Positions 1 through 52,000 of a DNA stretch of 54,966 nucleotides are shown here, piece after piece. A program made the position numbers and the translations under genes. Under the pieces are notes generated by a model, which worked only from the letters and a program-made list of their open reading frames with translations, did not search any database and had not been told where the DNA came from. The DNA comes from Natrialba chahannaoensis JCM 10990. GTDB lineage: Archaea > Halobacteriota > Halobacteria > Halobacteriales > Natrialbaceae. The stretch's first letter is position 1. Each line of letters opens with the position of its first letter. The stretch is taken from contig NZ_AOIN01000091.1 of assembly GCF_000337135.1 (NCBI RefSeq), positions 84,728 through 139,693 on the forward strand, read 5' to 3'.

Positions 1-1956
1 GAACAGCCGGTCCGGCAGGTACCGCGAGGCGAACGCCTCGCGCCACTCGTCGGGCAGGTCGTCCGCGGCGACCGTGATCTCGAGTGCCCCGGACGCGAGT
101 CGGTCTGCGGCGAGACAGAGCGTCGCGTGCTCGAGCGAGTTCGTCTCGATGCGGTTGGCGTGGGTTTCGAGCACGGTCGTGGCGATTTCCTCGAACTCGT
201 CGCCTTGATCCGCGAAGCCCTCGAGCGCGAGCAGCGTCTCTACAGCGACGCCCGCCGCCGAGGGCGTCGACTGATCGCCCAGTTCCTGCGGGCGAGTGAC
301 GAGCGATTCCCCACTCTCGGGCGTGAAGTACAGCGTTCCCCGGTCTGCGTCCCAGAACTCGTCCTCGATGACGCGTGCGAGGTCGAGGGCGAACGCGAGG
401 TGGTCGACCTCGCCGGTAGCCTCGTAGCAGCCCAGTGCAGCGCGCGCGAGGAACGCGTAATCTTCGAGGTAGCCGTCGATGGCCACGTCCCCGTCTTTGT
501 ACCGCCGCGAGAGTCGCTGTTCGTCTTCGTCCCAGAGCCGATCGCGAACGAACTCGAGTGCGTCGACGGCCATAGTGGCGTACTCGTCACCATCCTCACC
601 CCCGCCGAGAACCAGAGCGGCCTCGGCACAGGTCGCGATCATGAGACCGTTCCAGCCGGCGAGCACCTTCTCGTCGCGGTTGGGTCGCGGGCGTTGTTCG
701 CGAGCCGCGAACAACTCTTCGCGGGCGGACTCGAGTCGGTCCTGCACGTCGGGTGCTTCGAGATCGTACTCGGCCGCGAGATCTGACACCGAGCGCACGC
801 GGTTCGGCTGATTCGAGCCCTCGAAGTTGCCTGACTCCGTGATGTCGTACCGGTCACAGAACAGGTCAGCTGTCGTCTCGTTCTCGAGTACGTCGTGAAT
901 CTCGTCGGGCGTCCAGACGTAGAACGTACCTTCCTCACGCTCGCCGGTGTCGGGGTCCTCGCTCTGGGCGTCGAGCGTGCTGAAGAAACCGCCCTCCTCG
1001 TGGGTCAGTTCACGCTCGACGAACGCCAGGGTCTCGGCAACGACCTCGGCGTAGCGCTCGTCGCCGGTCTGCTGGTAGCCGATGAGGAACGCGCGCGGAA
1101 TCGCGGCGTTGTCGTACAGCATCTTCTCGAAGTGGGGCACCGTCCAGTCGCGGTCGACGCAGTAGCGGTGGAAGCCGCCGCCGACGTGGTCGTAGAGGCC
1201 GCCAGCAGCCATCGCGTCGAGCGTTTCGACGAGCACGTCCTGAAAGTCCTCGCGTTCGGTTCGGTCTGCGGCGCGGGCGAGCACCCGGAGCCGCGATGGC
1301 TGGGGGAACTTCGGGCCGTCGGAGCCGAAGCCGCCGAACTGGCGGTCCGCACTCCGAAACGAGGCGTTCGCGGCCGCGTCGAGTACGTCACTCGACGGCG
1401 GCTGTGAAGCGCTCACGGTATCCGGAGTCTCTTCGAGTCGATCTTTTGCCGCGTTGGTCCACTGTTCGGCGCGGTTCTCGACCTCGTCGCGGTCTCTTTC
1501 CCACGAGTTCGTCACGTTCTCGAGGATGTCGAGGAAGCCAGGCTGGCCGCGCTTGGCGTTCTTGGGGAAGTAGGTCCCAACGTAGAACGGCTTCCCCTCG
1601 GGGGTGAGCCACGCCGAGAGAGGCCAGCCGCCGCGGCCGGTGACGAGTTGGCAAACGGTCATATAGATGCTGTCGACGTCCGGCCGCTCCTCGCGGTCGA
1701 CCTTGATCGGAACGAAATTCTCGTTCAGGGCCTCGGCGACCTGCTCGTCCGCGAAGCTCTCGTCTTCCATGACGTGACACCAGTGACACGCCGAGTAGCC
1801 GATCGAGAGGAAGATCGGCACGTCGTGCTCGCGGGCCGTCTCAAGGGCTTGCTCGTCCCAGGGCTGCCAGTTGACGGGGTTGTCCGCGTGCTGGCGCAGG
1901 TACGGGCTCTCCTCCTCGTCGAGCCGATTGCGATCGGTCGGCGTGGATGTCGTCAT
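1..1956 (-). CDS. DUF255 / thioredoxin-domain protein (YyaL/SSP411 family), C-terminus cut by window edge
   Basis: An uninterrupted minus-strand frame of 652 codons runs from ATG at 1956 to the window edge. The N-terminal thioredoxin-like domain (about residues 1-170) has the family motif GYSACHWCHVM with Cys57 and Cys60, followed by VDREERPD. The six-hairpin-glycosidase-like C-terminal part has FGGFGSDGPKFP and HVGGGFHRY-type motifs. Family members are usually around 700 residues, so roughly 50-70 residues are missing. The biochemical function of the family is unsettled; a redox or sugar-related role has been proposed. The enzyme is probably cytoplasmic, as no signal peptide is visible. No partner gene is evident: the next gene lies 65 bp upstream on the same strand. 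Confidence 0.9.
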   Translation of the reverse strand, partial: MTTSTPTDRNRLDEEESPYLRQHADNPVNWQPWDEQALETAREHDVPIFLSIGYSACHWCHVMEDESFADEQVAEALNENFVPIKVDREERPDVDSIYMTVCQLVTGRGGWPLSAWLTPEGKPFYVGTYFPKNAKRGQPGFLDILENVTNSWERDRDEVENRAEQWTNAAKDRLEETPDTVSASQPPSSDVLDAAANASFRSADRQFGGFGSDGPKFPQPSRLRVLARAADRTEREDFQDVLVETLDAMAAGGLYDHVGGGFHRYCVDRDWTVPHFEKMLYDNAAIPRAFLIGYQQTGDERYAEVVAETLAFVERELTHEEGGFFSTLDAQSEDPDTGEREEGTFYVWTPDEIHDVLENETTADLFCDRYDITESGNFEGSNQPNRVRSVSDLAAEYDLEAPDVQDRLESAREELFAAREQRPRPNRDEKVLAGWNGLMIATCAEAALVLGGGEDGDEYATMAVDALEFVRDRLWDEDEQRLSRRYKDGDVAIDGYLEDYAFLARAALGCYEATGEVDHLAFALDLARVIEDEFWDADRGTLYFTPESGESLVTRPQELGDQSTPSAAGVAVETLLALEGFADQGDEFEEIATTVLETHANRIETNSLEHATLCLAADRLASGALEITVAADDLPDEWREAFASRYLPDRLF

Positions 1957-8161: not shown

Positions 8162-8554
8162 TCAGTACGACTCGATATCGAGGCCGTCGATCCGCTCGAA
8201 GTGGTCGACGTTTCTCGTAAGCACCGGCTCTTCGTGGATGAGCGCCGTTGCACCGATGATCGTGTCGCCGATTCCAATCGCCCGTCCGTCCGCAGCGAGC
8301 CGCCCGTCGATCCGGCCGGCCTTCTTCATTACCGCACTGTCTGCGGGATACACTGTTTTCGTTTCGAGCACGTTCTCGATCTGTCGACGACGTGTACTGG
8401 CGTCTGTCACCCGCTCGATGCTGTGATAGAGTTCGAACTGAGACACCGCCGAAACCCGAAGTGGAACCTGCTGGCTCTCGAGTGCACCGACCGTTTGGAT
8501 GGCCCGATCGGCTCCCTGCATGACATCGATGAGGATGTCGGTATCGACAATCAC
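8162..8554 (-). CDS. vapC: VapC-type PIN-domain toxin (ribonuclease)
   Basis: The 130-residue PIN-domain protein has the acidic metal-binding set expected of a VapC nuclease: MIVDTDILIDVM (Asp4/Asp6), the Glu in SQFELYHSI, the Asp in IGIGDTIIGATAL near residue 97 and the Asp in LTRNVDHFERI. VapC toxins cleave tRNA or rRNA when not bound by VapB. Its ATG overlaps the vapB TGA (ATGA), the standard antitoxin-toxin coupling. All four acidic positions are intact, so it is probably active. Confidence 0.92.
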   Translation of the reverse strand: MIVDTDILIDVMQGADRAIQTVGALESQQVPLRVSAVSQFELYHSIERVTDASTRRRQIENVLETKTVYPADSAVMKKAGRIDGRLAADGRAIGIGDTIIGATALIHEEPVLTRNVDHFERIDGLDIESY

Positions 8555-8796
8555 GAGTCCAGCCGGTCGGTGCGTCGGTCGAGTTCCGCCCGCGACCGAT
8601 CGGTCTGCTCACGAATGGCATCGCGCATCGTCTCGGCCTCCGCGTCGGTGAGCACTCCCGCGAGATCGAGCAACGACCGCTCGCCTGCGATCCGGTCGAT
8701 CGTATCCGAGAAGGATTCTCCTTCCCGCTTCCGCGCTCTGAGCCGCTGATACGCGTCCTTGGTAAGACGGACGTTCCGGTACTCGGTGTCGCCCAT
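8551..8796 (-). CDS. vapB: VapB-type antitoxin
   Basis: The 81-residue antitoxin begins MGDTEYRNVRLTKDAYQRL, a pattern typical of the archaeal DUF217-like VapB group (short DNA-binding N-terminus), with EGESFSDTIDRIAGE in the middle. A charged amphipathic C-terminus rich in Arg/Asp/Glu would neutralise VapC. The ATG at 8796 was chosen because the family motif starts there and because a TATA-like TTAA lies 26-29 nt upstream; a reading frame extending to 8871 encodes nothing recognisable. It probably represses its own promoter through the adjacent palindrome. Confidence 0.88.
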   Translation of the reverse strand: MGDTEYRNVRLTKDAYQRLRARKREGESFSDTIDRIAGERSLLDLAGVLTDAEAETMRDAIREQTDRSRAELDRRTDRLDS

Positions 8797-8798
8797 GT

Positions 8799-8826
8799 AC
8801 ACATATGTGTGCAGAATCGGCTTAAC
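8799..8826 (-). promoter_or_regulatory. vapBC promoter with candidate operator palindrome
   Basis: A perfect 12-bp palindrome ACACATATGTGT occupies 8799-8810, immediately upstream of the vapB ATG. A TTAA core (8822-8825) lies at -26 to -29, where a TATA box for a leaderless transcript belongs. The palindrome would therefore cover the start of transcription. VapBC complexes are known to autorepress through such palindromes; binding here is inferred. Confidence 0.6.
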
Positions 8827-8915
8827 CGTTGTGCTGCCTGACGCCAGGCACACTTTCACTCCGCTGTCCAAACCGTCTTTAGCCCCGCGTCCCTGCCACC
8901 GACTACGACGACACC

Positions 8916-10631
8916 ATGGCAGGTCCCACCGGTACTCGAGTACTCGCCCTCCCGCCGACCACGGTACTCGAGCGATCGGTTGCGACGCTCGAGGATATCG
9001 CCGCGACGATCAAGCCGGATGCGGTCTGGCTGTTCGGATACGCTCGCGAGCCGACGGCGGCAGCCCGCGCTCGCCACATCATGGACGTGCCGGTGATTCA
9101 CCCGCCGCTCGAGACGGCCGACGGTGGGACGCTTCCCCGGCACAGGATTGGTGACGAACTCGAGTTCGTTGTGGCGCAGCATTCGCGGGCGCTTGGTGCG
9201 GTTGCTGGTGCTGATTCTGGTGCTAGTGCTAATGTTGGTGCTAATTCTGGTGCTGATACTGCTGCTGGTGTTGGGAACAGTGCTGCTGACGGCGACAGCG
9301 ACAGGGACGGTAACGGGAATGATGACGGGAGCAAAACTGAACCACCGAGTGCCGACGCCCTCATCTGCGACCAGATCACGACCACGACGCGGCCCACCGC
9401 ACTCGAGACGACCCTCGATCACGCGGGCGAACTCGCGGCGGCGCTCCCGGCGGGCCAGGAGACGACCGTGCTAACCGGCGGGCTGCCCGCCGGCTACGAC
9501 GAACGGTGGCACCTCGACGCCGGGACGGGAGCCGTTCGAACCGTCGCGCACGATCCGCTGCGTTCCGCCGAGCCAGTCGCTGACGACGCCGTTGCGGTCC
9601 GCGTCCGGGGAGCCGGTCCCGTCGACGGCTACGGCGGCGCGGAATCCGTGGTGGCGCTCGAGTACAGCGCCGACGGTGCCGTCTCGACTGCAGCCTACGC
9701 ACCGGGCGATTTCGGACTCGAAGCGATCACCGGAGTCGGCCAGAAGACAGCGAACCGCCTCGAATCGCAGGGAGTGACGACTCGGGCGGGGCTACTCGAC
9801 CTGTCCGTTGCGGCGCTCGCGGATATCGAGGGCATCGGGGCAAAGAGCGCGCGCAGAATGCACGACCACGCGCGGGTACTCGAGTCGGGCGAGCCGCGCC
9901 GACTCACGGACGAGCCACTCCCCGGCGAAGCGTGGGGGCGGCCGCCGCTGTGTCTCGACATCGAAACCGACGGGCTCTCGCCGACGATCATCTGGCAGAT
10001 CGGGGTCTACGATCCCGAATCGGACACTCACCGAGCGTTCGTCGAGCGCGATGACCCCACCGACCGGGAATCGGTCGTTCGGGAGTTCTGCGACTGGCTG
10101 CTCGGCGTTCACCTGAATCGGGCGCTACTCACCTGGAACGGCTGGGGATTCGACTACCGGCATCTGGGTGCGTTCGTCGCCCGCCACTGCCCCGAGTATA
10201 CCGACGACTGGGAGTCGGTTCCGAAGTTCGACCTCTACCGCTGGGCGACCGACCGTGAGGGCACCGGCAACGCGCTCCTCCCCGGCCGGACGAACGAACT
10301 CGACGTCGTCGCCGCCGAACTCGGCTACGAGGGCCTGGGAACCGGCCTCGACGGCGCGCGAACGGCGGCGGCGTACCAGCGATTCATGCGGACGGGCGAA
10401 TCGGATGTACTCGAGTGGGACCGCCACGAGGCCTACTGCGAGGACGACTGTCGGGCGCTGTGGCACGTGTACGAGCGGCTTCGGGATGCACCGCGAGCGT
10501 CGGGTGTGGTGGGGTCGGCTGGCTCAGCGAGAGCAACGGAGTCGACGGGGTCGTCTCCAAATGGAGGCGGCTCACGCGCCGACAGCAAGGGTGGATCGAC
10601 CAGCGAGCAGACCGGACTTGGTGATTTCTGA
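8916..10631 (+). CDS. DEDD-type 3'-5' exonuclease with HhH domain (MrfB/YprB-like)
   Basis: In this 571-residue protein an N-terminal region of unknown fold is followed by a Gly/Ala/Asp low-complexity linker (about 92-145). A helix-hairpin-helix pair follows (about 267-320; AITGVGQKTANRL and DIEGIGAKSARRM). An RNase H-like exonuclease domain comes last (about 343-525) with CLDIETDGLSP, LTWNGWGFDYRHL and HEAYCEDDCRALW, giving the DxE...D...YxxxD set. The family prototype YprB/MrfB of Bacillus works with helicase YprA/MrfA in removal of mitomycin C lesions. The next gene is the matching helicase and starts directly after this stop codon. Repair function in this organism is inferred from the pair. 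Confidence 0.88.
   Translation: MAGPTGTRVLALPPTTVLERSVATLEDIAATIKPDAVWLFGYAREPTAAARARHIMDVPVIHPPLETADGGTLPRHRIGDELEFVVAQHSRALGAVAGADSGASANVGANSGADTAAGVGNSAADGDSDRDGNGNDDGSKTEPPSADALICDQITTTTRPTALETTLDHAGELAAALPAGQETTVLTGGLPAGYDERWHLDAGTGAVRTVAHDPLRSAEPVADDAVAVRVRGAGPVDGYGGAESVVALEYSADGAVSTAAYAPGDFGLEAITGVGQKTANRLESQGVTTRAGLLDLSVAALADIEGIGAKSARRMHDHARVLESGEPRRLTDEPLPGEAWGRPPLCLDIETDGLSPTIIWQIGVYDPESDTHRAFVERDDPTDRESVVREFCDWLLGVHLNRALLTWNGWGFDYRHLGAFVARHCPEYTDDWESVPKFDLYRWATDREGTGNALLPGRTNELDVVAAELGYEGLGTGLDGARTAAAYQRFMRTGESDVLEWDRHEAYCEDDCRALWHVYERLRDAPRASGVVGSAGSARATESTGSSPNGGGSRADSKGGSTSEQTGLGDF
9198..9288 (+). repeat. In-frame GNT-triplet tract in the exonuclease linker
   Basis: About 30 codons are almost all GGT, GCT, GAT, AAT, TCT, AGT or GTT, with the near-repeated block GGTGCTGATTCTGGTGCT / GGTGCTAATTCTGGTGCT. 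T-ending codons are the opposite of the GC3 bias around them. This is most simply a replication-slippage expansion encoding a flexible Gly/Ala/Asp/Asn/Ser linker. Confidence 0.75.
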
Positions 10632-13484
10632 ATGGCAACGAACGAGGGCGGAGATGTGGGAGATGAGGACGGCCAGGGCGACCAGGGCAACCAGGACGAC
10701 CAGCAAGCGATCCCGATCACTGGTGAGGAGTTGCGAGAGACGTTCCCGCGCGCAGGCGCTCGCGACTCTGGTGACATCTCCGTCCTCGAACTCCCCGGCC
10801 GAGAGGCAGCGACCGTTCCGAACTCGAACGTCCTCCGCCCGGAGCTCGCCGAGCAGTTGGAACACGACCTCTATGCTCATCAGGCCGAAGCGCTCGAGGC
10901 ACTCGAGTGTGGGAAGAACATCTGCGTCGCGACGAGCACCGCCTCGGGGAAGACGCGAATCTATGCGCTCCAGATTGCGAGACACTATCTGGACGCACGC
11001 GAGCGGGCCGCAGAGACCGGCGCGGGAAAGGGGAGACAGAACGGAGGCGAGAAGACGGGTGCAGTGTCAGGACCCACACCGACCGCCTACATCTGCTACC
11101 CCACGAAAGCCCTCTCGCGCGACCAGGAGCGCGAACTGAACGACTTCTACGACGACCTCGGCCTCGACATCACCGTCCGCGTCTACGACGGCGACACCGA
11201 ACGCGGCGAGACGCGCCGCCAGATCCGCGAGGAAGCAGACATCATCATCACCAACTTTGCCGGCGTGAATACCTACCTGCACGACCACGACCGCTGGGCA
11301 CGCTTCTTCTCTGCCTGCGACCTCGTGGTGATCGACGAATCCCACACCTACACCGGCGTCCACGGCATGCACGTCGCCTGGATTATCCGCCGACTGAAGC
11401 GCGTGCTCGCCTCCTACGACGCCGACCCGCAGTTCATCCTCACCAGCGCAACGATCGGAAATCCGGGCGCGCACTCGAGTACCCTGATCGACGACCAGGT
11501 AACGGTGATCGACGAGGACGGCTCTCCAACGGGGCCGCGGGAACTGGTGCTGTGGAATCCGCCGCCGCAGTCGAGTGAGAAAGACGGGGACAGAGCCGGT
11601 GCCGAAGACGCCGTCACCGACCGCGTCCCCGCCACCGTCGAAGCACCGCGGCTCCTCTCGCACCTGACCTACCACGACGCCCAGACGCTGCTGTTTACGC
11701 CCTCCCGAAAGCTCGCCGAACTCTCGGTCAAGCGCGCGGCAAAACATCGCCGCGACCGGTCACGATACTACACGAATCCGGACCGTGGCAGCGCCATCGA
11801 GCCCTACCACGCGGGCCACTCAAGGCGAAATCGCCACGGCACGGAACATCAGCTCAAGACCGGCGTGCTAGACGGCGTCGCCTCGACGAACGCACTCGAG
11901 TTGGGGATCAACGTCGGCGAGATGGACGCCACCGTCCAGTTGGGCTACCCCGGCCAGCGCCAGTCGTTCTGGCAGCAGATCGGCCGCGCGGGACGAGGGT
12001 CGAAGCGTGCGCTCTCGGTGCTCGTCGCCGGTCACCGCACACTGGACCAGTACGTCGTGAACAACTCGGAGTACCTACTCGAGAACGACGTCGAGGACGC
12101 CGTCGTCGACACCGAGAACGACGCGGTCTTCGCACAGCACCTGCTCTGTGCGGCGGCCGAACTCGCGCTCGATGAGAGCGACGCCGGCGCGGGCGGACTC
12201 GCCGACCGCGAGCGACTCGAGCAGGCGGTCGAGATGTGGCGACGCGCAGGGAAACTCACCGGCCACCTCGAAACCGGCGTCTCCTACACTGGCCCACCCA
12301 GACCGCAGCGGTCGATCTCGCTGTACGCCACGACCGGCGAGGAGTACACGGTCGAACTCGCCGACGGCGTCGACGAGCGCCACGACCCCGAGATGGAACC
12401 GCTCGCCGAGGAGCGCGTCCTGCGGGACTTCCACGAGGGTGCGGTCAGACTCCACGAGGGCCAGCAGTACGAGGTTTGTGCGGTCGATCACACGACCCCG
12501 CGGCCGTCGGTGACGCTGCGCCCGACGGACGTAGCGTACCACACGCGGACGCGCACGGACGTGACTGTCCTCGACGCCGTCTCGGAGGAGTCGCGCGAGA
12601 TTGGGACCTTTACGCTCCACTTCGGCCGCGGGCGAGTGCTCGTCTACCACGACGCCTACGATGAGGTCGCGATCCACGGCGGCAAAAAGCAAGCACAGCA
12701 ACTCCCCACCGGAAACCCGCCGCTCTCGATGGAGACGCAACTGTGCTGGCTCGAGGTCCCAGAGCGCGTCGAGTCCACACTGGTCGAGCGGTACCGCGAC
12801 TTTTCCGTGCCGGAACTGGACAGCGACCTCGCAGATACCGCCCACCTCGGCTACGCGGGTGGCCTCCACGCCGCCGAGCACGCGACGATTGGCGTCGCCC
12901 CACTCGAGTTGATGGTCGACAAGCGCGACCTCGGCGGACTAGCGACGCTGTCGATCGACTCGCATCTGGCCAGCGCCACAGCAGACGAGAACGGTGACGA
13001 CGAGACGAGCGTCGGCGAGGACCCTGCCCCCCAGAACATCGCCGCTGCTGAGGCGACCGTCAGAGAACTCGCGATGGGACTCGAGCGCAAACCCGCGAGC
13101 GGCTGGTTCATCTACGACGGGATCGACGGCGGCCTCGGTTTCTCGCGGGCGATCTACGAGAACTTCGAGGCCGTCGCCAGGCGTGCGCGCGATCTGATCG
13201 AAAACTGTGACTGCGGCCGCATCGATGGTTGTCCTGCGTGCGTGATGGACGACCAGTGCGGGAACGACAACCAGCCACTACACCGCGGCGCTGCTGTCGA
13301 CGTGCTGGATCACCTCCTGGCGAGTGCGAGTGGGGATGGAAGTGTTCTCGGGTCCGATCTACCGATAGATGATGGTGAGGACGGAGACAGAGACGGTAAC
13401 GAAGGCGGAAACGGAGCGGGAGACGAAGACGAACACGAAACTGGTGAAGTCGACGACAGACGGCCGCCGCTATTCTACGCCTGA
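10632..13484 (+). CDS. DEAD/DEAH-box helicase with C-terminal DUF1998 zinc motif (MrfA/YprA-like)
   Basis: The 950-residue superfamily 2 helicase has Walker A STASGKTRIY near residue 105, the Walker B variant VVIDESHTYTG near 235, motif III ILTSATIGNPG, and motif VI QIGRAGRGSKRA near 450. The C-terminal DUF1998 region has four Cys in NCDCGRIDGCPACVMDDQCG (about 857-876), expected to bind Zn. The protein ends in an acidic, low-complexity tail. MrfA/Hrq1-type helicases translocate 3'-5' on DNA and act in crosslink or adduct repair. The ATG abuts the exonuclease stop (TGAATG), so expression is coupled. Confidence 0.93.
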   Translation: MATNEGGDVGDEDGQGDQGNQDDQQAIPITGEELRETFPRAGARDSGDISVLELPGREAATVPNSNVLRPELAEQLEHDLYAHQAEALEALECGKNICVATSTASGKTRIYALQIARHYLDARERAAETGAGKGRQNGGEKTGAVSGPTPTAYICYPTKALSRDQERELNDFYDDLGLDITVRVYDGDTERGETRRQIREEADIIITNFAGVNTYLHDHDRWARFFSACDLVVIDESHTYTGVHGMHVAWIIRRLKRVLASYDADPQFILTSATIGNPGAHSSTLIDDQVTVIDEDGSPTGPRELVLWNPPPQSSEKDGDRAGAEDAVTDRVPATVEAPRLLSHLTYHDAQTLLFTPSRKLAELSVKRAAKHRRDRSRYYTNPDRGSAIEPYHAGHSRRNRHGTEHQLKTGVLDGVASTNALELGINVGEMDATVQLGYPGQRQSFWQQIGRAGRGSKRALSVLVAGHRTLDQYVVNNSEYLLENDVEDAVVDTENDAVFAQHLLCAAAELALDESDAGAGGLADRERLEQAVEMWRRAGKLTGHLETGVSYTGPPRPQRSISLYATTGEEYTVELADGVDERHDPEMEPLAEERVLRDFHEGAVRLHEGQQYEVCAVDHTTPRPSVTLRPTDVAYHTRTRTDVTVLDAVSEESREIGTFTLHFGRGRVLVYHDAYDEVAIHGGKKQAQQLPTGNPPLSMETQLCWLEVPERVESTLVERYRDFSVPELDSDLADTAHLGYAGGLHAAEHATIGVAPLELMVDKRDLGGLATLSIDSHLASATADENGDDETSVGEDPAPQNIAAAEATVRELAMGLERKPASGWFIYDGIDGGLGFSRAIYENFEAVARRARDLIENCDCGRIDGCPACVMDDQCGNDNQPLHRGAAVDVLDHLLASASGDGSVLGSDLPIDDGEDGDRDGNEGGNGAGDEDEHETGEVDDRRPPLFYA

Positions 13485-19972: not shown

Positions 19973-20143
19973 GCCGTGGCGACTGTAGCATGGGGAGATC
20001 AGATAGAGGAAGCAGAGAAAGGAGCAGAGCAGTGGTGTGAGGAGGAATAGTCGAATGACAGTAACAGCCCGGTGTTTGGAACAGTCTGGCAATCCGATCG
20101 ATCACAGCCAGTGCGAGGCAGTACAGACGGAGGACAGCGAGCG

Positions 20144-20419
20144 TTATAGTTCGACGTACTGTCCTTCCCAGTCCCGGCGTGCCTCGAGTTCACGACGGCC
20201 ACGGCGGGTGAGCGTGTAGAAGTTCGTCCGCCGGTCGCGGTGTCCCTTCTCGACGAGGCCCTTGTCGACGAGCGTGTCCAGATTCGGGTAGAGGCGGCCG
20301 TGGTGAATCTCTTTTTCGTAGTACTGCTCGAGTTCCTCCTTGATTGCCAGTCCGTGGGGTTCCTCCTCGCCAGCGATGACGTACAGCAGATCTCGCTGGA
20401 ATCCTGTCAGGTCGTACAT
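20144..20419 (-). CDS. PadR-family winged-helix transcriptional regulator
   Basis: The 91-residue single-domain PadR protein begins MYDLTGFQRDLLYVIAG, followed by EPHGLAIKEELEQYY (recognition region), IHHGRLYPNLDTLVDKGLVEK (PadR core) and the wing RRTNFYTLTRRGRRELEAR. It lacks the C-terminal dimerisation helix of long PadRs. Haloarchaeal RosR (reactive-oxygen regulator) belongs to this type, but equivalence is only a possibility. A TATA box (CTTATTAAAA) lies 31-40 nt before its ATG. No adjacent target gene is obvious: upstream is a long non-coding stretch. Confidence 0.88.
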   Translation of the reverse strand: MYDLTGFQRDLLYVIAGEEEPHGLAIKEELEQYYEKEIHHGRLYPNLDTLVDKGLVEKGHRDRRTNFYTLTRRGRRELEARRDWEGQYVEL

Positions 20420-20449
20420 TGGGAAAGTACCACCTACACTTACTGTCGA

Positions 20450-20459
20450 ATTTTAATAA
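20450..20459 (-). promoter_or_regulatory. TATA box of the PadR-family gene
   Basis: TTATTAAAAT on the minus strand, 31-40 nt upstream of the ATG at 20419, is the strongest TATA-like match in this gap; a transcript would have a leader of roughly 5-15 nt. Confidence 0.5.
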
Positions 20460-20727
20460 GGCTATCGGGTTGTTTCGAACGAAACCGGGGTATTACCAGC
20501 GAATATAGTCGTTTCATTGAGTTTCGAATGATAACACCCATGACCGATTCAGCATGGCAATACACATAATGTTCTGTTCATGTTTACGGTTCGTCGTTTA
20601 TAGAACCGAATATTTGGCACCCTTCGGTATGGTCGTCACTGGAATCGGTGGAAACGAGTCACTCACACTGTGGCTCGCCCGCGACACCCAGCGCAGTCGC
20701 TCAGAACTGTAGTAAACAGGAAAGCAA

Positions 20728-20756
20728 ATCGCGTGACGGGAAAAACGTCACGCGAT
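20728..20756. repeat. Hairpin 1 (11-bp stem)
   Basis: ATCGCGTGACG (20728-20738) is the exact reverse complement of 20746-20756, with the 7-nt loop GGAAAAA. There is no T-run after it, so an intrinsic terminator is not favoured. Confidence 0.8.
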
Positions 20757-20783
20757 CGCTTGCCGCCCTGAATTGGTCCCCGC

Positions 20784-20813
20784 TGACGCTTCGGCCCTCC
20801 AAGCGAAGCGTCA
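20784..20813. repeat. Hairpin 2 (10-bp stem)
   Basis: TGACGCTTCG (20784-20793) pairs exactly with CGAAGCGTCA (20804-20813) across a 10-nt loop. It lies 27 bp after hairpin 1. Confidence 0.8.
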
Positions 20814-21025
20814 CCAGAAAGATTCTGCTGGGACTACTTAAATGTGACGACACACTGCGAATTTGTGACGTATTCTAGCCGGGGGCGGAAGCAGTATCCA
20901 ACTGTCTCCCAACGACCGGCACCCGTCGGTTCCTGTGCTTCGAGAAGCGTCTTGAGAGCCGTGAAAGCAGATGTTTTGCTTCCTACACAAACCGATGGCG
21001 ACCGACTGACGCAGTCCGAGGCAGA

Positions 21026-21172
21026 TTACATGTGCTCTTCCTCCAGTACCCAGCCGATCGCGCGCTTGTAGTAGGTGAACATCTGCTCGACGCCGTCGTG
21101 ATTCATCTCCTCGCTTTCAAGGTGTTCCGTCAGGAACTCATACTGCTCGCGGATTTCTTCTTCGTCGCGCAT
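21026..21172 (-). CDS. Small acidic protein (48 residues), unknown function
   Basis: ATG at 21172 to TAA at 21026 encodes MRDEEEIREQYEFLTEHLES followed by an EMNHDGVEQMFTYYKRAIGW segment and an acidic end, EEEHM. The composition (Glu-rich, helical, one aromatic cluster) is typical haloarchaeal coding. A TTTTTT core sits at 21196-21201, 24-29 nt before the ATG, where a leaderless promoter should be. No membrane segment or Cys is present. It may be a single-helix-bundle adaptor; I recognise no named family, and it stands alone between two non-coding stretches. Confidence 0.7.
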   Translation of the reverse strand: MRDEEEIREQYEFLTEHLESEEMNHDGVEQMFTYYKRAIGWVLEEEHM

Positions 21173-21602
21173 GTCTCAGTGTTCCACCGACAGACAAAAA
21201 AGACCGCCGGGATCAGCAGGTGTCTTGGCTGGGGACTCTCGGTCCGGATTCTATTGAATCCCGAACCCGAACCTGATCAAGTCACGATCATGATTCCGAT
21301 CTCAGGCACGCAGCTGAGAAGCCGTGTCCTTGTTCAATCACTTCGATATTCGAGGTGTGTGGACTCACGTAACATGTTATTGGAGCGGCGGTCTAGTAGG
21401 GCAATTTGCGTGTAGGCGTCGTTTCACGAAGTAGTCACTCGTTTGGTGACACAACAGTCACCAAACCCGACCGGATATGAAACGGGACGAGAAAGAGTGT
21501 GGGCTCTCACAACGCCACTGTTTCCTCCGTTCGTCGTTGCCCGCCATCACCACTCGGTGATGAACGTTGGGTGGAACTATTCGCAACTTAATTGTAGACT
21601 CA
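21173..21602. other. Non-coding stretch
   Basis: Apart from the promoter of the 48-residue gene (21196-21201) and a possible TATA (CTTAATT, 21587-21593) for the flippase-like gene, I see no gene, repeat or RNA fold here. Open frames in it lack haloarchaeal codon bias. Confidence 0.5.
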
Positions 21603-22655
21603 ATGCAATGTTCGTATGTGAACCGTCGGATCGCCCTTGGTTTCGTCCTCGCCCTCCTCCTCCTGGGCGTCCTGATCCGCATCGTCGGCGGCCGTGCCGT
21701 CGCCGGAGAGTTTTCGAGTGCCGACTATCGGTTTCTCGGACTCGCTTTCGGATCGGGACTACTCGCACTGACCTTTCGAGCACTCGTCTGGGAACAGTTC
21801 CTCTCGCTGGTTGACGACACGCTGCCCCGGATACGAATCCTCGCGCTCTTTCTGAGCGCGATGTTCATCAAGTACGTCACACCCTACGGCCAGCTTGCCA
21901 CCGAGCCGTTCGTGGCCTATCTCGTGTCACAACGCGGTGAGATGGCCTTTGAAGACGGACTCGCTGGCATACTCTCCGCAGATCTGCTGAACTACGTGCT
22001 CTACTACACCTACGGGTTCGTCGCGCTTGGCGTGATCGTCGTCACCGGCGCGCTCGGAACGGACCTCTCCCTGCAGTTGCTCGCATTTACCGGCCTGTTT
22101 TCGGTCGTCGTCGGCGTCGTCTTCGTCACGGTCCGCCGCCCATCGGTCGTCTACACGCTGGTCCTGTGGGTGACGACGGGAGTTCGGAGACTCCTCTGTC
22201 GGTTCTCAGGCCGATTCGAGGATCGGTTTACGAAACAGACCGTTCGATCGCGCCTTGACGGGTTCTACGAGACGATCGACACGATTTCAGCAGACCGAAT
22301 GGCGCTCGTCGCCGCCATCGTCTTCGCACACCTGGGAATGCTCTTTCTCATGCTACCGGTCTATCTCGGCGCGCTCGCACTCGGGTACCGGCTGGCACTC
22401 CCTGTTGTCGCACTCGCCGTCGCGTTCGGAAAACTCGGCGCGGTCGTCCCCGCTCCCGGCGGTACCGGCGGCGTCGAAACGATGGTGACCGGGGTCCTCG
22501 CGACGCTCGGCGGCCTCGAACTCGCCACCGCGCTCACGATCGCACTTATCTACCGACTCAGCACCTACTGGCTCACCGTCGGCGTCGGCGGACTCTCCGC
22601 TGCCGCAGTGTTCCTCCGCGGCCCACACCCGGAAGCAAACGACTCCCGTTCGTAG
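21603..22655 (+). CDS. Flippase-like integral membrane protein (UPF0104 / LPG-synthase TM family)
   Basis: This protein of about 350 residues has eight or so membrane helices of the lysylphosphatidylglycerol synthase TM/UPF0104 type. Typical features are the conserved KYVTPYGQLATEPFVAYL near residue 90 and VVPAPGGTGGVETMVTGVLA near 285, followed by TIALIYRLSTYWLTVGVGGL. Members are thought to move lipid-linked intermediates (for example polyprenyl-phosphate sugars). I give ATG 21603; GTG at 21618 is an attractive alternative because CTTAATT (21587-21593) lies about 27 nt before it and the first five codons of the longer form are atypical. Confidence 0.87.
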   Translation: MQCSYVNRRIALGFVLALLLLGVLIRIVGGRAVAGEFSSADYRFLGLAFGSGLLALTFRALVWEQFLSLVDDTLPRIRILALFLSAMFIKYVTPYGQLATEPFVAYLVSQRGEMAFEDGLAGILSADLLNYVLYYTYGFVALGVIVVTGALGTDLSLQLLAFTGLFSVVVGVVFVTVRRPSVVYTLVLWVTTGVRRLLCRFSGRFEDRFTKQTVRSRLDGFYETIDTISADRMALVAAIVFAHLGMLFLMLPVYLGALALGYRLALPVVALAVAFGKLGAVVPAPGGTGGVETMVTGVLATLGGLELATALTIALIYRLSTYWLTVGVGGLSAAAVFLRGPHPEANDSRS

Positions 22656-49735: not shown

Positions 49736-51025
49736 CTAGGAGAACGAAGACAGATCTGTCTCGACATCACGCTCACGCGATGAATCACCGTTCGCGAGTT
49801 GGTCGTAGGACGGCAAGTCCTCGAGTGAGGAATCTCGTTTGACTGCCTTGACGATGTGCTTTGGGTCTGTCACGAGTCGATGGAGCAGGTAACTGCCCTG
49901 TGAGCGTCCGCCACCGGTCTTTTCGGACTCGATCACGCCGAGAAACGCCTGTTCCTTGAGCTGTCGGTACAGTCCGTTCTCCGTGATCGGGTCGTTCGCG
50001 ACCAGCTCACAGATACCAACGTAGCGCTGGTAGATTTCTCGGGTCTTGTACGTCTCGCGGTCGCCAGTGATGATGCGACTCGCGAGCGAGTAGAGGGCGA
50101 GTTTGGCGTGGACCGTCGCGCCACTGGTCAACTCCTCGATGCGGTTGATCTCGGCGACTTCCTGGGCCTGCTGGATGTGGTCCTCCGAGACCGCCTCCGA
50201 ACCGGTGCGGCGAGCTAACTCGCCTGCTTCCTTCAGAATCTCGATCGCCTTGCGTGCGTCCCCGTGCTTCTTCGCCGCGAGTGCTGCACAGAGTTCGATC
50301 GTCCCGTCCTCGAGAACGTCCGGCTGGAAGGCATCCTCGCGATTGCGCATGATCTCACGAAGCTGGGAAGCGTCGTAGGGGTGGAAGAACAGCTCGCGGT
50401 GGCCGAAGCTGCTGTCGATGCGTTCATCCAGAGTTTCGCGGTACTGAACCTTGTTGCTGATGCCGATCACGCCGATGTAGGCGTCCGTCTTGCGCGCTTC
50501 GCGAGCGCGAGAGAGTTGCATCAAAATGTTGCTGTTGTCGAGTTTGTCGATCTCGTCTAAAATGACGATGACAGCGTCGAAGAAGGACTCCAGAATACGC
50601 CAGATGTGCTGGTAGTACTCCATGGTTCCGACGCCGCGAAGCGGGATGTGGTCCTGGTAACCAGTCTGTTCCTTGAGGCTCAGGGCGAGTTGGCGGGTCG
50701 CACGCGTCTCCGTGTTCGCTTCGGAGCAGTCGACGTAGAGGACGCCACAGTCGATCTCGTTGCTCCGGGCGGCATCCTGGGCTCGCGTGGCGACGTGGCG
50801 AGAGATGAGGCTCTTTCCGGTCCCCGTTTTGCCGTAGATCATCACGTTGTTCGGTGGATCGCCGCGCGTGATCGCGCCGACTTCAGCGGCAACTGACTGG
50901 ATCTCGTTGTCCCGACCGACGATCCGGTCTTCGTCGGGCACGTGACCAACGTGCAGAAGCTCCTTCCGATTGAAGATCGGATCGTGAGATTGAAAGAGCG
51001 GGTCCCCACCGGCCGTATCAGCCAT
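49736..51025 (-). CDS. orc1/cdc6: Orc1/Cdc6 replication initiator
   Basis: The 429-residue AAA+ initiator binds origin boxes and loads MCM. Walker A is MIYGKTGTGKSLISRHVA (about residues 63-80), Walker B VIVILDEIDKLDNSNIL (about 150-166), sensor 1 IGVIGISNKVQY, and sensor 2 lies near KHGDARKAIEILKEAG. The C-terminal winged helix (about 300-400) contains YQRYVGICELVANDPITENG and GGGRSQGSYLLHRL. Its ATG lies 24-31 nt after a TATA box (51049-51056). The adjacent 975-bp gap has origin-like architecture, so this is probably the cognate initiator. Confidence 0.96.
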   Translation of the reverse strand: MADTAGGDPLFQSHDPIFNRKELLHVGHVPDEDRIVGRDNEIQSVAAEVGAITRGDPPNNVMIYGKTGTGKSLISRHVATRAQDAARSNEIDCGVLYVDCSEANTETRATRQLALSLKEQTGYQDHIPLRGVGTMEYYQHIWRILESFFDAVIVILDEIDKLDNSNILMQLSRAREARKTDAYIGVIGISNKVQYRETLDERIDSSFGHRELFFHPYDASQLREIMRNREDAFQPDVLEDGTIELCAALAAKKHGDARKAIEILKEAGELARRTGSEAVSEDHIQQAQEVAEINRIEELTSGATVHAKLALYSLASRIITGDRETYKTREIYQRYVGICELVANDPITENGLYRQLKEQAFLGVIESEKTGGGRSQGSYLLHRLVTDPKHIVKAVKRDSSLEDLPSYDQLANGDSSRERDVETDLSSFS

Positions 51026-51026
51026 G

Positions 51027-51056
51027 CTTCCATTCTGGAAGACAGGTATTATAAAA
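51027..51056 (-). promoter_or_regulatory. orc1/cdc6 promoter with short dyad
   Basis: The TATA box TTTTATAA is at 51049-51056 (minus strand), -24 to -31 from the ATG. Between it and the ATG lies the dyad CTTCC-ATTCT-GGAAG (51027-51041), whose TTCC...GGAA core is like that of haloarchaeal oriC1 boxes. It may be an autoregulatory initiator site. Confidence 0.5.
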
Positions 51057-51171
51057 CCACGGGAAAGAATGCAGACTGATAACGAGAACGGGAACGGCCC
51101 AATTCGGTCACAATGCCGCTATAGAGGGCCTTGTTCTACGTTATCGGCGATTGAACAGTCATCGAACAGAC

Positions 51172-51194
51172 CCACCCCTGGTTCAGAGTGAAAC
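51172..51194 (-). other. Origin recognition box 1 (reverse orientation)
   Basis: The minus strand reads GTTTCACTCTGAACCAGGGG followed by TGG. It is closest to the orc gene and points toward it. Confidence 0.7.
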
Positions 51195-51302
51195 GTGTGA
51201 TAACAAGGAGGGGGTAGAGGTGTGGACATTGGATGGGTGAGTATTGCTCAGTCGGTTGTAAAAGGAGGGACTCTCGCCCTGAGTGCACACAGTGTCACAC
51301 AC

Positions 51303-51317
51303 TGTGGCTTCTCTCAG
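51303..51317 (+). repeat. Left arm of 15-bp inverted repeat bracketing the AT-rich region
   Basis: TGTGGCTTCTCTCAG is the exact reverse complement of 51453-51467. The arm overlaps a second dyad, CACAGTGT-CAC-ACACTGTG (51288-51306). Confidence 0.9.
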
Positions 51318-51452
51318 AAATTGCATAAACAGCCTCTCATACTTCTTGTCTTACTCTTTCTCCCTATCTAGTCTAGAACCGTTTCTAGTTATAACTTGTA
51401 TTTTACGGTACTGGTGACTATATCCTGTAGAAGGTCATTTTTATATGATTTC

Positions 51453-51467
51453 CTGAGAGAAGCCACA
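51453..51467 (-). repeat. Right arm of 15-bp inverted repeat bracketing the AT-rich region
   Basis: CTGAGAGAAGCCACA pairs exactly with 51303-51317. With one bulged C the pairing continues inward for about four more A/T pairs. Confidence 0.9.
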
Positions 51468-51676
51468 TTCACACATCACAGACCAATCAGATGAGACGAG
51501 AGCACATGTGATGTTGCAGTTCTTCACCCATCTTACGAACATAACTGACCAGTCGATTCCACCTGTCTGTTCCAGCTCTTTTTACTCTACTTCACACCCT
51601 TTTCATGCATACCGTACTCTTCTCATCCGTCTCATCCCTCTCTCACCTTCCTCCCCCTCCCCCACCACCAATCGAA

Positions 51677-51700
51677 TACACTCTGAACAAGGGGTGTCCC
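51677..51700 (+). other. Origin recognition box 2 (forward orientation)
   Basis: TACACTCTGAACAAGGGGTG followed by TCCC; shares 17 or more positions with box 4. Confidence 0.75.
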
Positions 51701-51821
51701 TGGGTCAATTTCTTCTCAGAGATACACTACTCACCGCTATTGCCCGCTCTCCCGGTGCTTACTGGGAATTACGAGAGTCGACTCGTTGGCTTGAATCGCT
51801 ACTCCTGTCGGTCCCTTCTGT

Positions 51822-51844
51822 CACCCCCCAATTCAGAGTGAAAA
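51822..51844 (-). other. Origin recognition box 3 (reverse orientation)
   Basis: The minus strand reads TTTTCACTCTGAATTGGGGG followed by GTG. It faces away from box 4, which begins 36 bp further on. Confidence 0.7.
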
Positions 51845-51880
51845 TGTTCACGGTTTATTTCACTCCCTCCGGACCGCCGC

Positions 51881-51905
51881 TTTCACTTTGAACAAGGGGT
51901 GTCCC
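51881..51905 (+). other. Origin recognition box 4 (forward orientation)
   Basis: TTTCACTTTGAACAAGGGGT followed by GTCCC. It lies about 95 bp before the CitE-like start, so initiator binding could affect that promoter. Confidence 0.75.
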
Positions 51906-52000
51906 ACTCTGTGACCAGTCCCACGCGACTCACCTCCCGTCTCATCACTCCCCGTATCAGGTCCCATACTTTGACAGTAGTGGTACGCGCACAGTCGGCT

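Follow-up and report, generated by a model that had tools for sequence, protein, structure and literature searches.

The locus described here, from the haloarchaeon Natrialba chahannaoensis JCM 10990, encodes a helicase of the MrfA/YprA type and, directly upstream, an exonuclease-like protein that ends in a conserved motif, QTGLGDF. This C-terminal motif, which is absent from the first-pass annotation of the same DNA, is our main finding beyond that annotation, and its sequence suggests that the nuclease is a PCNA-binding (PIP-type) protein. We favor, with a probability of roughly 0.55, the reading that the two proteins would form a haloarchaeal clamp-tethered helicase-exonuclease excision pair working, by analogy, like bacterial MrfAB. 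Throughout, the window is the whole stretch of DNA that was analyzed (54,966 nucleotides), and positions are given in it. The two genes are:

8916..10631, plus strand: nuclease gene, 571 aa (P0001), ATG start (ORF; family kept in 81 haloarchaeal loci)
10632..13484, plus strand: MrfA/YprA-type helicase gene, 950 aa (P0002), ATG start (ORF; match to 6znp, E 4.2e-87)

The nuclease and helicase genes are linked

That an exonuclease gene and a DUF1998 helicase gene adjoin at this place had already been proposed, and both the ORFs and their Pfam domains bear it out, the stop codon of the former and the start codon of the latter abutting as TGAATG. The same annotation named unlinked genes in most haloarchaea as a result that would speak against it, and the opposite is seen. 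Among 194 haloarchaeal genomes (the class survey), the nuclease finds a match at E 1e-3 in 86 and at E ≤1e-40 in 73, the latter with 81 loci; the weaker matches are to phosphoesterase-type relatives or are short, mostly covering HhH only. At 81 of the 81 loci the helicase gene lies downstream on the same strand, with a gap between the stop-to-stop ORFs of 1348 nt in one (L076) and at most 179 nt in all others. Helicase matches above 500 bits number exactly 81, in the same genomes and places as the nuclease loci; one genome (G034) has a helicase fragment only (437 bits), without the nuclease, and, if second pieces of these genes are set aside, no other haloarchaeal YprA helicase scores above 312 bits. 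A named scan, with 80 loci under haloarchaeal titles or such MAGs, gave the same arrangement in 80/80, the distance being <200 nt in 77. The two surveys share species and are not to be summed. The association of nuclease and helicase is far beyond chance.

As for its spread, the pair is present in 41 of the 50 genomes of the window's family versus 32 of 144 elsewhere, and is absent from 121 of the 194 haloarchaea sampled (these counts, like the 73 genomes and the 81 helicase matches over 500 bits, were taken by hand from tables). Thymidylate synthase is its neighbor at 26 of the 80 named loci, as in the window; at the other 54, no neighbor of the window copy was found. From this distribution and neighborhood, the pair has a stable place on the chromosome in Natrialba and its relatives, and is accessory, in part plasmid-borne, elsewhere. 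There are 47 plasmid records with any nuclease match, some of them to the conserved HhH-DEDD part only. A related pair is found on plasmid PHS3 of Halobacterium salinarum R1 (OE_RS12870/OE_RS12865) and relatives in several Haloferax species, which puts genetics within reach.

Several observations concern the surroundings of the pair. The six neighboring ORFs scanned in the window encode thymidylate synthase, VapC, VapB, an S9 peptidase, fructosamine kinase and aconitase. The VapB/VapC-type antitoxin-PIN gene pair (8162-8871, minus strand) sits between the nuclease and thymidylate synthase; near the 80 named loci, VapB relatives occur in five and VapC in four. GC content is about 0.55 at 20001-22000 and 50001-52000 versus 0.58-0.66 in the rest of the window, and these two stretches are possibly mobile DNA. 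Two plasmid cassettes, one with UvrD, PD-(D/E)XK nuclease, helicase and phosphodiesterase genes (L233) and one with ThiF and an extra DEAD/DEAH helicase (L270), may be defense islands. Seven nucleases of 485 aa from seven genomes (L041, L042, L044, L045, L047, L049 and L054) are 79-99% identical, which suggests recent transfer. In Natronorubrum thiooxidans (L103) a broken frame interrupts the nuclease gene, and the annotation of a Natronobeatus plasmid (H28) splits it into two products.

The nuclease ends in a conserved PIP-type motif

The C-terminal end of the nuclease is a tail in which the PIP-type motif is the sole conserved part:

10491..10607, plus strand: disordered tail, residues 526-564 (pLDDT <50 at 536-564; unconserved, gappy)
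10608..10628, plus strand: C-terminal PIP-type motif QTGLGDF, residues 565-571, predicted PCNA binding (81/81 class loci; 79/80 named loci)
10620..10624, plus strand: candidate ribosome-binding site of the helicase gene, GGTGA, within the PIP codons (sequence; putative function)

The pattern Q..[LIM]..[FWY], no more than three residues from the C terminus, occurs at 81/81 class loci and 79/80 named loci, the exception being the frame-broken L103, and a stricter form with [DE] ahead of the aromatic residue at 77 of the 80 named loci. In 66 aligned nucleases, Q565 is invariant, L568 is replaced once (by I), and position 571 is F in 62 and W in 4. These alignments (A2 and A3) contain the window protein and those of 65 of the 80 named loci, leaving out mostly near-duplicates, the frame-broken L103 and L111 (start unresolved); a smaller one (A1) has 20 nucleases, from the window and 19 of the 81 class loci.

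A ribosome-binding site was considered as the origin of the motif and rejected at the peptide level. At 79 named loci the motif takes the form of 25 peptides encoded by 62 different nucleotide sequences, and at the 81 class loci of 20 peptides, again from 62 sequences; because the Q, L and F codons vary synonymously, the constraint acts on the peptide and not on a ribosome-binding site. Moreover, the Phe is swapped for Trp or Tyr in some loci, and the motif is kept where the helicase ORF starts 800 to 1348 nt downstream (L145, L160 and L076).

In the same genome, FEN1 ends in QTGLDRWT and NreA in QTNLNAFSQ. A strict DNA pattern of the motif has four matches in the genome, three of which are at ORF ends: that of the pair nuclease and those of two proteins identified by eye from their sequences, Hel308 and a DNA methylase. 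The Hel308 sequence (L169, ORF 148..1524) closes with a motif of the same type, QSSLGDF. Haloarchaeal FEN1, NreA and Hel308, of which the first two are PCNA clients, are enzymes unrelated to the pair nuclease but have in common with it a C-terminal Q-x-x-L-x-x-[FW]. The motif was not found at the C termini of 56 helicases (0/56) or at the ends of 16 other nucleases checked. Passages of two papers give the archaeal PIP consensus as QXXhXXaa (PMC4929162) and QxxLxxFx (PMC7776575); the nuclease motif is without the second aromatic residue of the classical QxxhxxFF box. In Haloferax volcanii, the PIP of NreA is required, together with UvrABC, for mitomycin C repair, according to a passage of PMC4929162.

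The helicase is of the MrfA/YprA type

The helicase has the following parts:

10875..11459, plus strand: RecA1 domain, DEAD, residues 82-276, with Walker A K107 and DESH 235-238 (Pfam)
11667..11996, plus strand: RecA2 domain, Helicase_C, residues 346-455 (Pfam)
12873..13244, plus strand: MZB/DUF1998 zinc-binding domain, residues 748-871, with C859, C861, C867 and C870 (PF09369, E 3.6e-16)
13458..13481, plus strand: conserved C-terminal tail ending RRPPLFYA (sequence comparison of pair helicases)

The best solved relative is Bacillus subtilis YprA/MrfA (6znp, E 4.2e-87), and by sequence comparison the protein is an MrfA/YprA-type enzyme. K107, the D, E and H of DESH, and the four MZB cysteines are all invariant in 56 of 56 helicases. 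These came from the window, 29 of the 80 named loci, six other archaeal sequences and 20 unpaired haloarchaeal ones; in a tree of the 56 made by a quick method, the haloarchaeal paired helicases form one group (support 100), separate from unpaired haloarchaeal YprA and from the MrfA of other archaea. The sequence RRP..FY[AS] ends 15 of the 15 group A/A2 pair helicases examined (the window's included, the others within L087-L128), and four group B pair helicases end in RP.AS[IV]S.

The nuclease has three modules

Ahead of its tail, the nuclease consists of:

8928..9698, plus strand: degenerate calcineurin-like phosphoesterase fold, probable, residues 5-261 (model pLDDT 84; VIA; Foldseek)
9216..9332, plus strand: low-complexity insertion inside the N-terminal domain, residues 101-139 (pLDDT <50 at 101-135; mostly missing from the other alignment rows shown)
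9714..9878, plus strand: two helix-hairpin-helix (HhH) motifs, residues 267-321, predicted DNA binding (PF14520, HHH_5, 268-320, E 3.3e-11; helices in model)
9936..10490, plus strand: DEDDy 3'-5' exonuclease domain, residues 341-525, with D348, E350, D413, Y507 and D511 (PF13482)

The exonuclease domain is recognized by Pfam as RNase_H_2 (PF13482, residues 345-522, E 4.9e-29). Its five active-site residues, including Y507, are present in 66/66 aligned nucleases, and the protein is therefore, by these residues, an exonuclease of the DEDDy and not the DEDDh type, with predicted activity. The active-site residues of helicase and exonuclease are thus both intact in the alignments of 56 and 66 proteins. 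In structural comparison by VIA, the DnaQ-type domain (341-532) is closest to the proofreading domains of family B polymerases (5mdn, Z 15.8, rmsd 3.5, 173 aligned). A kinship with TM0106/RecB-type proteins fell below cut-off and was read as common HhH and RNase_H_2 only. Plasmid annotation names pair nucleases "ribonuclease H-like domain-containing protein". The genome has a second RNase_H_2 protein (L167, 1147-2001), of 284 aa and DEDDy-like, with an HhH-like stretch ahead of the domain; it does not lie near the genome's single MrfA relative.

The HhH motifs had been placed ahead of the DEDD domain, and Pfam confirms this order. A profile search of PDB sequences matched the HhH of RadA/Rad51 and of L32e; together, the single-sequence and profile searches returned HhH proteins and chance matches only, and the absence of the solved MrfB from them excludes nothing. 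The motifs are not what sets this nuclease apart: MrfA-linked proteins of other archaea, too, have an HhH-like stretch ahead of their DEDD domain, which a family profile detects but Pfam at E 0.01 does not.

While sequence searches left the first 260 or so residues unrecognized, with no Pfam family above cut-off ahead of residue 268, structure prediction gives them a calcineurin-like phosphoesterase fold. An Epimerase_2 match at residues 18-62 (Pfam, E 0.32) was taken as chance. In the full-length model (mean pLDDT 85), the residues singled out in the first-pass annotation (VWLFGYAREPTAAARARHIM) cover the second strand and the next helix of this domain. Because matches to the exonuclease domain took up the fold searches with the whole model, the N-terminal domain was folded and searched alone (264 residues, pLDDT 84). 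Its top VIA match is aq_1956 (2yvt, Z 10.1, rmsd 3.8, 172 aligned), followed by Lmo2642 (Z 9.3), 1uf3 (Z 9.2) and then SMPDL3A, purple acid phosphatases, Mre11 and SbcD, all of which we take to belong to one superfamily. Nearly all 50 VIA rows are phosphoesterases, 9a6c alone being undecidable from its title, and the top Foldseek match is again 1uf3, weakly (E 6.6e-3, probability 0.87). The metal-ligand motifs of such enzymes are not conserved in the 66 aligned nucleases (GHxH 0/66, HxPP 2/66 and GN[HD][DE] 3/66), nor does any column of the domain hold His at ≥60% in them, and the domain is therefore called degenerate. From its fold alone, we regard it as probably a dead calcineurin-like phosphoesterase; an hhalign comparison between the N-terminal alignment and the intact form of the domain, a thin target of five sequences, gave no signal (probability 0.2%). 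The small subunits of replicative polymerases in eukaryotes contain inactive calcineurin-like domains.

The nuclease is probably closer to phosphoesterase-type proteins than to MrfB

No full-length relative of the nuclease was found outside haloarchaea among 294 genomes of the phylum. The search yielded nine HhH-DEDD proteins (L203-L211), of which six (L205 and L207-L211), with H at the fifth active-site position, lie directly upstream of an MrfA-type helicase and three do not. In BLASTP, one such MrfA-linked protein of another archaeon matches a Bacillaceae MrfB-type protein (P0003) at E 3e-32 over 191 columns, versus E 0.057 for the window nuclease. We have taken P0003 as an MrfB orthologue from its DEDDh motif; it comes from a Geobacillus plasmid record, with no annotated helicase adjacent, and the spore and DivIVA genes around it presumably resemble the Bacillus yprB neighborhood.

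The best profile scores are E 2.4e-36 for proteins of the metallophosphoesterase-HhH-DEDDy type versus 1.2e-16 for MrfB-type ones. One of the former (L264), with an intact phosphoesterase, is from a genome outside haloarchaea. In an exonuclease-domain tree of 35 of 37 prepared rows (L265 and a third gene of the H. salinarum cassette were dropped), the haloarchaeal pair nucleases and the phosphoesterase-type proteins split from the MrfB-type proteins and one other (99/96), with long branches present. This tree favors kinship with the phosphoesterase-type proteins; AU tests rejected none of the alternatives (p about 0.2), among them a grouping of pair nucleases with MrfB (p 0.196). An ancestry separate from MrfB is thus favored by the sequences, not shown. 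The metallophosphoesterase-HhH-DEDDy gene adjoins genes for a SRAP (SOS response-associated) peptidase and a Cdc6 family protein on a Halobacterium hubeiense plasmid (L271, 5001-6446) and in L082-L086, and its product is 94-97% identical across several haloarchaeal plasmids.

A model for the pair and its alternatives

The model that we favor takes its repair part from MrfAB of B. subtilis, as described in passages of PMC11194089. By analogy with MrfA, the helicase would unwind DNA in the 3'-5' direction where a lesion or a stalled end occurs, and the exonuclease, by its DEDDy residues, would digest the opened strand from its 3' end, while the HhH pair may grip the duplex near the site. The PIP-type motif would dock the nuclease on PCNA and thereby couple excision with clamp-loaded ends and with the filling of gaps by PolB/PolD. 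The phosphoesterase domain, probably dead, could be a scaffold, perhaps docking the helicase, like the inactive domains of polymerase small subunits, and bulky adducts would be the repair target. The one-to-one linkage, the intact active sites and the constrained PIP motif count for this clamp-tethered excision, as do the role of the NreA PIP in mitomycin C repair and the position beside thymidylate synthase; the accessory distribution, the plasmid copies among other helicases and nucleases, and the missing second aromatic residue count against it. The probable ancestor of the nuclease is a metallophosphoesterase-HhH-DEDDy protein, in which the first active site was lost and to which the PIP tail was added. 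A fuller version, in which a former two-nuclease protein kept its dead domain for docking, acquired a clamp tail and replaced MrfB beside the helicase to give PCNA-dependent MrfAB-type excision in haloarchaea, we put forward tentatively, as a possibility short of even odds. The phosphoesterase assignment by fold alone (hhalign 0.2%) and the AU result also count against the favored model.

The pair could instead be a plain archaeal MrfAB orthologue that repairs adducts independently of PCNA, its C-terminal motif being a coincidence or the ribosome-binding site of the helicase. The abutting genes for an MrfA-type helicase and an RNase_H_2 nuclease, the GGTGA within the G-D codons just ahead of the helicase start, and the AU test, which does not exclude grouping with MrfB, all fit such an orthologue. 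However, the synonymous sites of the motif vary freely, its Phe gives way to Trp or Tyr, it persists far from the helicase ORF (L145, L160 and L076), the active site is DEDDy and not DEDDh, and the window nuclease barely resembles the Bacillaceae MrfB-type protein (0.057) that an MrfA-linked protein of another archaeon matches at 3e-32; we hold this explanation unlikely.

A role at replication forks, where a clamp-bound helicase and a proofreading-like 3'-5' exonuclease would clear stalled forks of 3' ends that are mismatched, blocked or reversed, draws on the nearness of the exonuclease domain to polymerase proofreading domains (Z 15.8), the PIP-type tail, the adjoining thymidylate synthase (26/80) and the similar QSSLGDF tail of the fork helicase Hel308. 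It seems quite unlikely to us, as the MrfA relatives studied to date act on mitomycin adducts, according to passages of PMC12458937 and PMC11194089, and as a pair missing from 121 of 194 haloarchaea is therefore not core replication. To an anti-plasmid or anti-virus system spread mostly by plasmids, like the defense branch of YprA helicases, we give little credence. Plasmid copies beside other helicases and nucleases (L233, with UvrD, PD-(D/E)XK nuclease and phosphodiesterase; L270, with ThiF) also fit defense, as do the seven nucleases 79 to 99% identical in seven genomes and the patchy distribution. Nevertheless, PADLOC has no match for the nuclease, the pair helicase matching defense helicases that belong to its own superfamily; the genes around the window copy are of housekeeping or toxin-antitoxin kinds (thymidylate synthase, VapBC and S9 peptidase), with no BrxHII/PglX partners among the six ORFs scanned; there is no match in phage records and, among the matches listed, no full-length relative in viral contigs.

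If clamp-tethered excision is correct, archaea would have a coupling new to them, in which the clamp directs the removal of bulky adducts independently of UvrABC. MrfAB was found only recently as a route for damage of the mitomycin type that does not need UvrABC, and passages of PMC11194089 leave open what the TPRs do in B. subtilis; to the question of how such a pair is recruited, the conserved clamp-binding-type tail suggests a concrete answer for archaea. Our analysis also gives a probable identity to an N-terminal domain previously left unplaced, and a probable origin of the nuclease in a dual-nuclease ancestor.

Comparison with known systems

Among the matches listed in open-access literature on MrfA/MrfB, YprA/YprB and COG3359, neither a PIP motif nor a phosphoesterase domain is described for this nuclease. 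The available text of a classification of RNase H-like proteins (PMC3985635) records that TPRs follow COG3359 and that COG2251 comes with a PD-(D/E)XK-like domain, and does not note the present arrangement. The YprA family tree includes a repair branch linked to MrfB (PMC12458937, in part). The ARMADA, DISARM, Druantia and BRIGADE defense helicases share the DUF1998 family with the pair helicase but have other partners and insertions, according to passages of the same paper, and no such partners are seen among the six ORFs scanned around the window copy.

The metallophosphoesterase-HhH-DEDDy proteins (L082-L086 and L264) have the same order of phosphoesterase fold, HhH and DEDDy domain as the pair nuclease, but retain the PF00149 motifs and have no PIP tail and, in L082-L086, no adjacent MrfA. 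The MrfA-linked DEDDh proteins of other archaea (L205 and L207-L211) resemble it in gene position just upstream of an MrfA-type helicase and in the HhH-like stretch before the DEDD domain; they differ in being only 361-400 aa, without a phosphoesterase-type N-terminal match or a C-terminal PIP motif, and in having H for Y.

With B. subtilis MrfA/MrfB (YprA/YprB), the shared feature is a DUF1998/MZB SF2 helicase whose gene adjoins that of an RNase_H_2 (PF13482) 3'-5' exonuclease-type protein. The Bacillus gene order is yprA-yprB, whereas in haloarchaea the nuclease gene comes first. MrfB is DEDDh and the pair nuclease DEDDy; MrfB carries C-terminal TPRs (PMC11194089, in part), where the pair nuclease has a disordered C terminus with the PIP-type motif; and, unlike MrfB, the pair nuclease has HhH motifs and a probable degenerate phosphoesterase domain in front. 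The earlier description as an MrfA/MrfB-like pair thus stands for an MrfA-type helicase linked with a DEDD exonuclease, but not for a nuclease that is simply MrfB with HhH added: the haloarchaeal pair is an archaeal variant of the bacterial repair pair, not a copy of it.
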